From assembly GCF_002135205.1 (NCBI RefSeq), contig NZ_NEFZ01000003.1, positions 124,001 through 188,000 on the forward strand: a stretch of 64,000 nt of DNA. Direction: 5' to 3'. The notes beneath the pieces are model-generated. The model was not told the origin of the DNA. It did no database searches and saw only the letters and a list, made by a program, of their open reading frames with translations. Shown here one piece after another: positions 25,959 through 29,102 of the stretch. This DNA comes from Acinetobacter sp. ANC 4204 (GTDB lineage: Bacteria > Pseudomonadota > Gammaproteobacteria > Pseudomonadales > Moraxellaceae). Position 1 is the first letter of the stretch; every line of letters starts with the position of its first letter. Both the position numbers and the translations under genes were made by a program.

Positions 25959-25977
25959 ACAAACGATAAAAATTATC
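25959..25977 (+). promoter_or_regulatory. Candidate Fur box upstream of bfd
   Basis: The 19 bp at 25959-25977 match the classical Fur consensus (GATAATGATAATCATTATC) at 13 of 19 positions, with an internal GATAA/TTATC dyad. It is 42 bp before the bfd start, and bfd genes are commonly Fur-repressed. AT-rich background makes chance matches likely. Confidence 0.45.
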
Positions 25978-26019
25978 AATAATATCACTTATCTTATTTA
26001 TTTCATGTGGCTTGCTGAA

Positions 26020-26214
26020 ATGTACGTGTGCTTATGCCGTGGTATTACAGATCAAGATATTAAAGATGCCGTTGAAAATGGTGCGGGAAGCTATCGTGAA
26101 GTCCGCGAGATGCTAGACCTCGGCACATGCTGTGGGCGCTGTGCACCAGAAGCACGTTCGATCATTAGCGCTGAAGTATCTGCGATTGCCTCACGTTTGG
26201 CGATTGCGGCATAA
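26020..26214 (+). CDS. bfd: Bacterioferritin-associated ferredoxin
   Basis: 64 residues, the same length as E. coli Bfd. MYVCLCRGITDQDIKDAVEN and the later GTCCGRCAPEAR supply the four cysteines (C-x-C ... C-x2-C) that hold a [2Fe-2S] cluster. Bfd docks at the heme of bacterioferritin and reduces the core so iron can leave. The frame runs 15 bp upstream, but ATG 26020 gives the family start; the ribosome site is weak. It lies 261 bp upstream of bfr and has a Fur-box-like site, so low iron should raise it. Confidence 0.93.
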   Translation: MYVCLCRGITDQDIKDAVENGAGSYREVREMLDLGTCCGRCAPEARSIISAEVSAIASRLAIAA

Positions 26215-26475: not shown

Positions 26476-26940
26476 ATGAAAGGCAATCGTGATGTAATTA
26501 ATCAGTTAAATCAGGTGCTTTATCATCATTTAACTGCAATTAACCAGTATTTTCTTCACTCGCGCATGTTTAATGACTGGGGTATTGAGCAACTTGGCTC
26601 TGCCGAATATAAAGAATCCATTCGTCAAATGAAACATGCCGATAAAATCATTGAGCGTATTCTTTTTTTAGAAGGCTTACCAAACCTACAACACTTAGGC
26701 AAACTTTATATCGGTCAACACACGATTGAAGTACTGAACTGTGATGTACGTAAGGTCAATGAGAACATTGAAGCCATTCAAGCTGCTGTGAAGCTCGCTG
26801 AAGAGCAGCTCGACTATGTCACTCGTGATCTTGTGCAAGAAATCTTAGAAAAAGAAGAAGAATGGTTAGACTGGACAACCACACAGCTTGATTTGGTTGA
26901 AACTGTGGGTATTGAGAATTATATTCAGAGCCAAATGTAA
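26476..26940 (+). CDS. bfr: Bacterioferritin subunit, heme-binding type lacking most ferroxidase ligands
   Basis: 154 residues, aligning without gaps to E. coli Bfr over at least residues 1-133 (shared AINQYFLH, MKHAD, IERILFLEGLPNLQ). The heme ligand Met52 is kept. Of the six di-iron ligands only His54 and Glu127 remain: position 18 is His, 51 is Gln, 94 is Val and 130 is Trp. It should therefore bind heme between subunits but not oxidise Fe(II) itself. In Pseudomonas and Neisseria such subunits co-assemble with a ferroxidase-competent partner. GGAG precedes ATG 26476, and the Bfd gene just upstream supplies the electron donor. I infer a mixed 24-mer with a second Bfr encoded elsewhere. Confidence 0.93.
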   Translation: MKGNRDVINQLNQVLYHHLTAINQYFLHSRMFNDWGIEQLGSAEYKESIRQMKHADKIIERILFLEGLPNLQHLGKLYIGQHTIEVLNCDVRKVNENIEAIQAAVKLAEEQLDYVTRDLVQEILEKEEEWLDWTTTQLDLVETVGIENYIQSQM

Positions 26941-26994: not shown

Positions 26995-27729
26995 TTATTT
27001 CCAAGGGCGGAGATCAACAATTTTAACTACCTCACCTTTCTCTTTATTAATTAAAACAACCATATCAACAGCATTGGCTTTAAGCGGAACAAAACCCGTT
27101 GCTTCAGGATACTGAGCCAATATTTGCGTTACATCCATTTTTGCATTGTATTTATCCAATTCTTTTAACGCAATAACATGACTTTGTATCTGCTTTTTTG
27201 CTTGCCCTAAGTCCACATAAAGCTCAGGCCTTTGCGCAACATCCACACCTGAAAAAACAGCCTCAAAAGTAATCGCATTTCTTTCATTCACATTTTTAGG
27301 CGGAACTGCTGCAACCCAATTAGGAAATAAAAAACTTACATTTTGGTACTCAGGAAGAGCTTTTTCAACCTTACGCAAATCTATCTCATTAATACGCACA
27401 AGGTCAAAGCGATCCGCATTATAAACCAACCATGCAGGCTTTCCTTGATAGACTGTAAAAAGTCCATAAGTTAATGCGGCTAACTGTAATAAGCAAATAA
27501 TTGTTAAATCAAGCTTTAGGGTTTTTTTACCTGTTTTATAAACGAGTAATGTTAAAAGTGGACCTATTACCACATCTATACAGAGCATCAGAAGAAAGAT
27601 ATGCATTACACCTGTGGCCACCGCCAAAGGTGCTGGATACCAAATGAAATAAACCAAGCCCATAGATAATAAAGCAATAATGATTGAGACCAAACCATGA
27701 ACCAAAAATGCTTTTATACGTGCCGACAT
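26995..27729 (-). CDS. TfpX/TfpZ family type IV pilin accessory protein
   Basis: 244 residues. Two to four hydrophobic helices fill the first half (about 6-100: GLVSIIIALLSMGLVYFIWY, FLLMLCIDVVIGPLLTLLV, then LTIICLLQLAALTYGLFTVY), followed by a periplasmic domain with PAWLVYNADRFDLV. This is the pattern of TfpX/TfpZ proteins encoded next to pilA in Pseudomonas, which influence pilin levels and assembly. ATG 27729 has GGGAT upstream; an earlier start would overlap the pilin. It begins 41 bp after the second pilin gene on the same strand and is probably cotranscribed. The biochemical role is not known from sequence. Confidence 0.85.
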   Translation of the reverse strand: MSARIKAFLVHGLVSIIIALLSMGLVYFIWYPAPLAVATGVMHIFLLMLCIDVVIGPLLTLLVYKTGKKTLKLDLTIICLLQLAALTYGLFTVYQGKPAWLVYNADRFDLVRINEIDLRKVEKALPEYQNVSFLFPNWVAAVPPKNVNERNAITFEAVFSGVDVAQRPELYVDLGQAKKQIQSHVIALKELDKYNAKMDVTQILAQYPEATGFVPLKANAVDMVVLINKEKGEVVKIVDLRPWK

Positions 27730-27770
27730 ATGTATATCCCGCCCCCAATTAAGAGCGCCTATTTTATGCT

Positions 27771-28292
27771 TTAAAGCATATAACGGCAATTGCTAGGTAT
27801 GTACTTATAGGCTGCAGTTGATCTTACCCCACACCCCCACACTATAGGCTGTCCAGGAATTATGGCAGCACTTGGACGGGCTGAACTTACATCCCCAGAA
27901 CCCGGTGTTAGAACAATATTGGATTCTAATGCGGTATTAATTACACCATCATACTCAATTTCAATTTGCCCCTCATCCATAACTGGCGTAGCTAAATTCG
28001 CAATACCAGTAATACTCATACTGCTGACATTTTCAGTTGGGGTAAATTGGAAAGAATACGAACCAGCAACATTGGGACCTGTACCGTTATAGGGTGTAAT
28101 AGTTCCACTGATCATATAACCAAGCATTTCGACTACTGCCAACTTTGCTTCACTTGATAGAACGAGCCCTTCTGAAACCTTGCTTCGTATTGTGTAATTT
28201 TGATATGCAGGGATAGCAATGGCGGCTAAAACCCCAATGATTGCAACAACAATCATTAATTCAATCAAAGTAAAACCTTGCATTCTACGCAT
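27771..28292 (-). CDS. Type IV major-type pilin, second copy
   Basis: 173 residues. The leader MRRMQG is cleaved before [20 protein letters not shown], with Glu5. The next segment ([16 protein letters not shown]) resembles the adjacent PilA, the middle diverges, and the C-terminus has a disulfide-loop pattern with Cys in VWGCGV and SNCRYML. GGAG lies 8 nt before ATG 28292. It follows pilA, but a terminator separates them and its own upstream region has a sigma-54-like element with a defective -12. It may be an alternative major pilin, a remnant of pilin diversification or a low-level component. The TfpX/TfpZ gene follows it. Confidence 0.9.
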
Positions 28293-28330
28293 GATATTTC
28301 TCCCTTAGCTTCATATTCTTATTCTATTAC

Positions 28331-28346
28331 TACAATTTTAATGCCA
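28331..28346 (-). promoter_or_regulatory. Degenerate sigma-54-like promoter of the second pilin
   Basis: On the minus strand TGGCATTAAAATTGTA matches the -24 half of the sigma-54 consensus (TGGCA) with correct spacing, but the nearly invariant -12 GC is GT. It is about 38 bp upstream of the pilin start codon. Confidence 0.4.
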
Positions 28347-28457
28347 ATTATATTTTTTATATATAACAATAGCTTGAAATAAAACACAAAGTTTTAACTA
28401 ACATTTTTTGTCAACAATTCACAATTTATTGACTCAGCTTATAAAGCAGCAAGAAAT

Positions 28458-28485
28458 AAAAAACGCATCTAAAGATGCGTTTTTT
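28458..28485 (-). terminator. Rho-independent terminator of pilA
   Basis: A stem of up to 13 bp (28458-28470 with 28473-28485, core CGCATCT/AGATGCG) with a tight loop and T-run on the minus strand lies 16 bp past the pilA stop, separating it from the second pilin. Confidence 0.9.
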
Positions 28486-28501
28486 ATAATTGAACTATAT
28501 A

Positions 28502-29044
28502 TTAGTCATTAGCATAACGGCAGTTTGAAGGTACATATTTAAATGCAGCTTCAGCACCTGTTACTAATGTACAACCCCAAACCACTGGAGCACCTTGCGC
28601 AAGTGGATCCGCAGGTAAGCCTGTACCTGCACTATCAACCACACCACTACCTGGCACTAAACGAAGTGTTGAACCTAATGATGTTGCTAACTGACCATCA
28701 TAAGTAATTGTAATCGCCCCGTCACCTGCTGCAGGTGTCGTTACATCAGCAATCTCAGCAATCTCAATAGATGCTACATTTTCACCAGGCGTATATTCAT
28801 AGCCATAAGAACCTGCTACTGAATCACCTGTACCATCATATGCTTCAACCTTACCACTGTTACGTGTAGAGAAAGTTTCCGCTACCGCTGTTTTTGCAGC
28901 ATTGGCAAGTGTTAAACCTTCAGTAATTTTAGTACGTACTGTATAGCTTTGATACGCAGGAATCGCGATCGCAGCAAGAATACCGATAATCGCAACTACG
29001 ATCATTAATTCGATAAGGGTGAAACCCTTTTGAACTGATTTCAT
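28502..29044 (-). CDS. pilA: Type IV major pilin PilA
   Basis: 180 residues from ATG 29044 (GGAG upstream). The leader MKSVQKG is cleaved before [20 protein letters not shown] with Glu5, followed by [16 protein letters not shown]. The variable Gly/Thr-rich domain ends in a Cys loop (VVWGCTL to SNCRYAND). It is the main fibre subunit for twitching and DNA uptake, stored in the inner membrane and assembled by machinery partly encoded by pilMNOPQ in this window. A good sigma-54 promoter stands 60-75 bp upstream, in keeping with RpoN/PilR control in Pseudomonas. The pilSR regulators are not in the window. Confidence 0.93.
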
Positions 29045-29102
29045 AACATTCTCCACAAATGTTTTGTTAATTTCTTATAAGCTTTTAAGGCTACTTTGTA
29101 AT

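Follow-up and report, generated by a model that had tools for sequence, protein, structure and literature searches.

A heme subunit of bacterioferritin without a complete ferroxidase centre in Acinetobacter sp. ANC 4204, and its probable heme-free partner encoded elsewhere in the genome

The bfr locus and its altered ferroxidase site

We analyzed a stretch of 64,000 nucleotides from Acinetobacter sp. ANC 4204 (the window). It contains a bacterioferritin gene (bfr) and, on the same strand and ending 261 bases before the start of bfr, a gene for a bacterioferritin-associated ferredoxin (bfd). Table 1 lists these features and a second subunit gene that lies elsewhere in the genome.

Table 1. Features of the bacterioferritin system. 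Positions are those of the window, except for the partner, which is given by genome (G000, the same genome), contig and position.
Feature	Position	Strand	Evidence
bfr, heme-binding bacterioferritin subunit without a complete ferroxidase centre	26476..26940	+	residues, TIGR00754, PF00210, PDB 9bts_A
bfd, bacterioferritin-associated [2Fe-2S] ferredoxin	26020..26214	+	PF04324, 57.9 bits over 26005-26211
Fur-box-like block upstream of bfd (tentative)	25959..25977	+	13/19 consensus matches
Partner, heme-free Ftn-type subunit, ligands EEHEEH, Ala52	G000:C12:622164-622625	-	genome search, translation, multiple alignment

The bfr frame is open from its ATG to the end of its stop codon and encodes 154 amino acids. 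The product scores 201.1 bits against the bacterioferritin model TIGR00754 (NCBIfam), for which the curated cut-off is 125.55, and its Pfam match is PF00210 (Ferritin). It aligns without gaps to Bfr of E. coli K-12 (NC_000913 bfr) over residues 1-154, with 52% identity. In this alignment, the heme ligand Met52 is present, and positions 18, 51, 54, 94, 127 and 130 are H, Q, H, V, E and W, where E. coli has E, E, H, E, E and H. An earlier note on this DNA had read Met52 and the six ligand positions in just this way, and its readings are exact. The six-residue intrasubunit di-iron ferroxidase centre of homopolymeric, E. coli-type bacterioferritin is absent from this protein. Two other positions that the note did not mention, 46 and 50, are Lys and Arg; in E. 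coli Bfr these are the inner-surface iron residues His46 and Asp50.

These unusual residues are not a sequencing slip: the reading frame is intact, the E. coli ligand set occurs in none of the 93 distinct Acinetobacter heme subunits that we read, and dN/dS is 0.02-0.05. The ratios were obtained for 6 of 10 pairs and are rough, since dS was 1.0-2.0; the other 4 pairs were saturated. Purifying selection on the heme subunit is strong. In one set of 80 related loci, all are from Acinetobacter, and the nearest (from A. gandensis, A. amyesii and one further strain) are 96% identical.

The longest open frame for bfd begins at 26005, and its second ATG gives a product that begins with MYVCLCRG. The second ATG is probably the true start; it gives the contact residues M1, Y2 and L5 that are reported for Bfd of P. 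aeruginosa and A. baumannii (excerpt of PMC12261321). Of 139 loci that encode the heme subunit (135 from Acinetobacter and 4 from another genus of the family, g10; some species are represented more than once), 137 have bfd on the strand of bfr. In 133 of these 137 loci, the product begins with MYVCLCRG. For the other two loci, L091 and L153, there was no match to bfd in the locus DNA that was searched. The remaining matches to PF04324 in the ANC 4204 genome are parts of ORFs that are 856 and 937 residues long.

A block that resembles a Fur box, scored against a Fur consensus, lies about 61 bases ahead of bfd. It is not significant in the window alone, as 62 of 500 shuffles score as well. In each of the 137 loci that have bfd, the top-scoring 19-mer in the 120 bases upstream agrees with the consensus at 13-15 of 19 positions, at an offset that varies; this count is without a shuffle or phylogenetic control. 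A Fur box upstream of bfr itself is unsupported (the best 19-mer has 12 matches, which 90 of 500 shuffles equal). If the block upstream of bfd is real, it may mean that bfd is regulated by iron apart from bfr.

On the other side of bfr, two adjoining ORFs on the minus strand (27771-29056) lie beside an ORF at 26995-27789 whose product resembles a membrane protein. The N-termini of the two ORFs resemble those of type IV pilin subunits.

A probable heme-free partner in the same genome and across the genus

The earlier note had predicted that a second Bfr, with intact ligands and without Met52, would be encoded elsewhere in the genome, and had named the lack of any second Bfr, together with full ferroxidase activity of this subunit, as a result that would count against its reading. 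The genome assembly (3.9 Mb in 19 contigs, estimated to be 100% complete) contains one further match to the bfr product, at 41% identity, and it is the predicted gene. In a gapped multiple alignment, this partner has all six ferroxidase ligands and Ala at position 52. A local BLAST alignment had placed Tyr at ligand position 94; this reading was superseded by the multiple alignment, which has Glu there (Glu93 in the partner's own numbering) because of a one-residue gap before this position and a one-residue insertion after it. Three loci in the genome pass the cut-off for PF00210 (bfr, the partner and a third), and a fourth match is below it. The product of the third locus resembles Dps, as far as we can judge.

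In this draft assembly, the bfr gene of the window is on contig C13 and the partner gene is on C12, so the arrangement is dispersed. A second, heme-free subunit gene elsewhere in the genome, ferroxidase ligands in the partner, and bfd near one bfr are features of the dispersed (DSD) heteromeric type, as given in an excerpt of PMC12120770, and all three are present here.

Both subunits are a trait of the genus. A close homolog of the heme subunit is present in 148 of 149 Acinetobacter genomes (75-100% identity), and the exception, G030, is 65% complete. A close homolog of the partner is present in all 149 (79-100% identity). In one genome, the partner gene (G090:C71:66213-66674) has one internal TAA, which may reflect either a sequencing error or a disrupted gene. 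All 20 of the distinct Acinetobacter partners whose residues we read have the ligands EEHEEH, with Ala (18) or Ser (2) at position 52.

For the heme subunit, we read 93 distinct Acinetobacter sequences, a sample that favours near relatives. Met52, Gln51 and the positions of the Bfd site (68, 69, 70, 72 and 78-81) are invariant in all 93, and Glu51, Glu94 and His130 are each kept in none. At position 18, 83 sequences have H, 9 have Q and one has E; at position 54, 86 have H and 7 have D; at position 94, 90 have V, 2 have A and one has T; at position 127, 92 have E and one has D; and at position 130, 80 have Y, 9 have W and 4 have F. Positions 18, 54 and 130 are more variable than the median column.

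Proposed division of labour between the subunits

The closest protein of known structure to the bfr product is chain A of PDB 9BTS, "Bacterioferritin (Bfr)" from A. baumannii (9bts_A, E = 2.8e-87), and the closest to the partner is another chain of the same entry, "Ferritin (Ftn)" (9bts_a, E = 6.6e-90). This structure of the native protein is reportedly due to Yao et al. 2024 (Sci Rep 14:18242). The bfr product is identical to 9bts_A at 136 of 154 residues (88%), and none of the 18 differences falls within residues 1-83. The A. baumannii heme subunit has Met52, H18, Q51, H54, V94 and E127, and it is identical to the bfr product at Bfd-site positions 68, 69, 70, 72 and 78-81. It differs at position 130, which is Tyr instead of Trp. 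As described in an excerpt of PMC13136788, the native 24-mer of A. baumannii (9BTS) is a mixed cage of both chains, and its heme dimers are without ferroxidase centres. Furthermore, A. baumannii Bfd binds the bacterioferritin cage with a Kd of 5.6 uM (excerpt of PMC12261321).

With these orthologues in view, we consider it highly probable that the bfr product is the heme subunit of a heteromeric, 24-mer bacterioferritin, in which iron is oxidised by the heme-free, Ftn-type partner that is encoded elsewhere. The bfr product very probably relies on this partner. For strain ANC 4204 itself, co-assembly, heme content and the lack of ferroxidase activity in the heme subunit would follow by analogy with the A. 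baumannii orthologue. The earlier note had proposed much the same: a subunit that cannot form the normal di-iron site, acts as the heme-only member of a mixed 24-mer and offers Bfd a place to dock. The partner gene, the co-assembly of the orthologues in 9BTS and the binding of Bfd to the A. baumannii cage support this interpretation.

The proposed mechanism is as follows. Each pair of heme subunits would bind a single heme b, placed between the two Met52 side chains, and these dimers would also carry the docking site for Bfd. With heme and docking site both on these dimers, electrons would flow from the [2Fe-2S] cluster of Bfd to the heme and on to the ferric core, and iron would be released. 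The heme subunit would be unable to build a normal di-iron site, and dimers of the heme-free partner (with six ligands and without Met52) would oxidise iron instead. Conservation in the genus fits this mechanism: the heme ligand and the Bfd surface do not change, none of the sequences retains Glu51, Glu94 or His130, and variation is seen at positions 18, 54 and 130.

The Bfd site of A. baumannii Bfr is called identical to that of P. aeruginosa Bfr in the excerpt of PMC12261321. L68, P69, N70, Q72, I79 and G80 of the bfr product are indeed the residues of P. aeruginosa BfrB. Positions 78 and 81, however, are Tyr and Gln in both the bfr product and 9BTS and Leu and Glu in BfrB, so "identical" does not hold letter for letter.

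A different explanation for the altered site is that it holds a mononuclear 2-His-1-carboxylate metal site, made up of His18, His54 and Glu127 together with Gln51, that replaces one iron of the di-iron centre and has a different role. His18, Gln51 and His54 are shared with 9BTS, Glu127 is not among the 18 listed differences, and in the genus these residues are common (Gln51 in 93, Glu127 in 92, His54 in 86 and His18 in 83 of the 93 sequences). Two of the putative ligands are nevertheless less conserved than the median column: conservation is 0.89 at position 18 and 0.92 at position 54, versus 0.99 for that column. Seven sequences combine Q18 with D54, two others have Q18, and one has E18. Gln is also found at position 18 in all 4 sequences from g10, the nearest genus in the gene tree, and the excerpt of PMC13136788 mentions no such metal for A. 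baumannii bacterioferritin. We consider a replacement metal site to be very unlikely. Still, Gln51 (93/93) and Glu127 (92/93) are well kept, so the old pocket is not simply free to drift, and it might retain some structural or metal role.

Alternatively, the heme subunit could form a homopolymer that stores heme or carries electrons separately, with the partner forming its own iron-storing cage. The two genes are on different draft contigs, so no shared operon obliges them to be expressed together. In native A. baumannii bacterioferritin, as excerpted from PMC13136788, both chains belong to one mixed cage, and we view separate cages as extremely unlikely. There is virtually no chance that bfr is a decaying duplicate without function, which the loss of four of the six catalytic ligands might suggest, as this is already contradicted by conservation (the low dN/dS in 6 pairs, the presence of the gene in nearly every genome of the genus, and the invariance of Met52 and the Bfd-site residues).

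The preferred reading, a heme subunit working with a ferroxidase partner, has already been published for the A. baumannii orthologue, in which five of the six old-site residues are identical; our finding is correct and is not new. Related systems are known from other bacteria, and the comparisons below rest on excerpts of the papers cited. In the FtnA/BfrB heteropolymer of P. aeruginosa, the partner is also a heme-free FtnA-type subunit and Bfd docks on the heme dimers (PMC8945002, PMC12261321). Unlike the bfr product, BfrB keeps all six ferroxidase ligands (PMC13136788), and it differs at the two Bfd-site positions noted above. Bfr1/Bfr2 of Magnetospirillum gryphiswaldense (PMC6529640) and SoBfr1/SoBfr2 of Shewanella oneidensis (PMC12120770) each combine a heme-free ferroxidase subunit with a heme subunit whose centre is impaired or missing, in one 24-mer. 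In contrast to the dispersed genes of Acinetobacter, the two genes of each of these pairs are adjacent (an operon or tandem), and the residues replaced in Bfr2 of M. gryphiswaldense are different (E18Q, H54A and H131M; PMC6529640).

Loss of the centre beyond Acinetobacter

To see how the altered site is distributed, we searched genomes of the family and the class. In the family, 103 of 119 genomes had a match (26 within the genus and 77 outside it), and we read the residues for 39 of those 77. Sixteen of the 39 have a single match, with ligands EEHEEH (14) or EEHETH (2). Among the other 23, which have at least two matches, the heme subunit is degenerate (at least two ligands lost) in 22 and intact in one (G159); the 23 distinct partners have EEHEEH and no Met52. 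In the class, 35 of 87 genomes matched, and loci were obtained for 30, including the window's. In the 29 others, each of the 9 adjacent pairs combines a degenerate heme subunit with a partner that has EEHEEH. Both of the dispersed pairs have an intact heme subunit (this reading covers the heme subunit only), and all 18 single genes keep six ligands (16) or five (2). The heme subunit has an intact centre in three of the sampled partnered genomes (L201, L212 and L226), so having a partner does not force the loss of the ferroxidase site.

A few loci do not follow the usual patterns. In the adjacent pair of L236 (class genome G281), Met52 is present in the six-ligand subunit as well, so heme might be bound by either member of the pair. 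Four single-gene Bfrs (L172 and L173 from genus g2 of the family, L231 and L237) have Thr127 (EEHETH) and are without a detected partner.

We compared 80 hand-picked rows: 11 Acinetobacter heme subunits (out of the 93 distinct sequences), 39 genomes from elsewhere in the family, 29 from the class, and E. coli Bfr, which was taken to be partnerless. "No partner" means that there was no second match to the window protein at a cut-off of 0.001 (family) or 1e-10 (class). In this hand-picked sample, the heme subunit is degenerate in 42 of the 45 rows with a partner gene versus 0 of the 35 rows without a detected partner. On the tree, this association amounts to about two evolutionary events and is not significant. 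We dropped the statistical argument that a degenerate heme subunit requires a partner, as supported branches offer just 2 independent pairs (sign test, P = 1). L239, one of the rows without a detected partner, is on a long branch; it has Met52, although its sequence lies nearer to the partner than to the bfr product of the window.

The tree was built from 85 rows with the ligand columns left out. On this tree, two changes are required to explain the degenerate state: one for Acinetobacter and g10 (support 100/95) and another for the clade of adjacent pairs (90/94, which is below the mark). Deep supports are weak, the bootstrap is unsettled, and the data do not reject one clade of all 44 degenerate rows, which would mean a single loss (p-AU = 0.255). 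We are evenly divided on whether the centre was lost at least twice independently in the Gammaproteobacteria, once in the dispersed pair of Acinetobacter and g10 and once in the tandem pairs of other genera of the family (g7, g9, g11 and g15) and of further lineages, always with a heme-free partner encoded. In an excerpt of PMC12120770, heteromeric bacterioferritins are argued to arise by both tandem and dispersed routes. If the repeated losses are real, bacteria would have arrived more than once at an equivalent of the division of labour between the H and L ferritins of animals.

The principle of two kinds of subunit is older than the work on Acinetobacter, as it was described for Bfr1/Bfr2 of M. 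gryphiswaldense along with a case from N. gonorrhoeae (excerpt of PMC6529640). For A. baumannii, the point is already made in the structural and inhibitor work on Bfr-Bfd (excerpts of PMC12261321 and PMC13136788). More broadly, the annotation "bacterioferritin" hides two kinds of subunit, and residue 52 together with the six ligand positions tells which kind a protein is.
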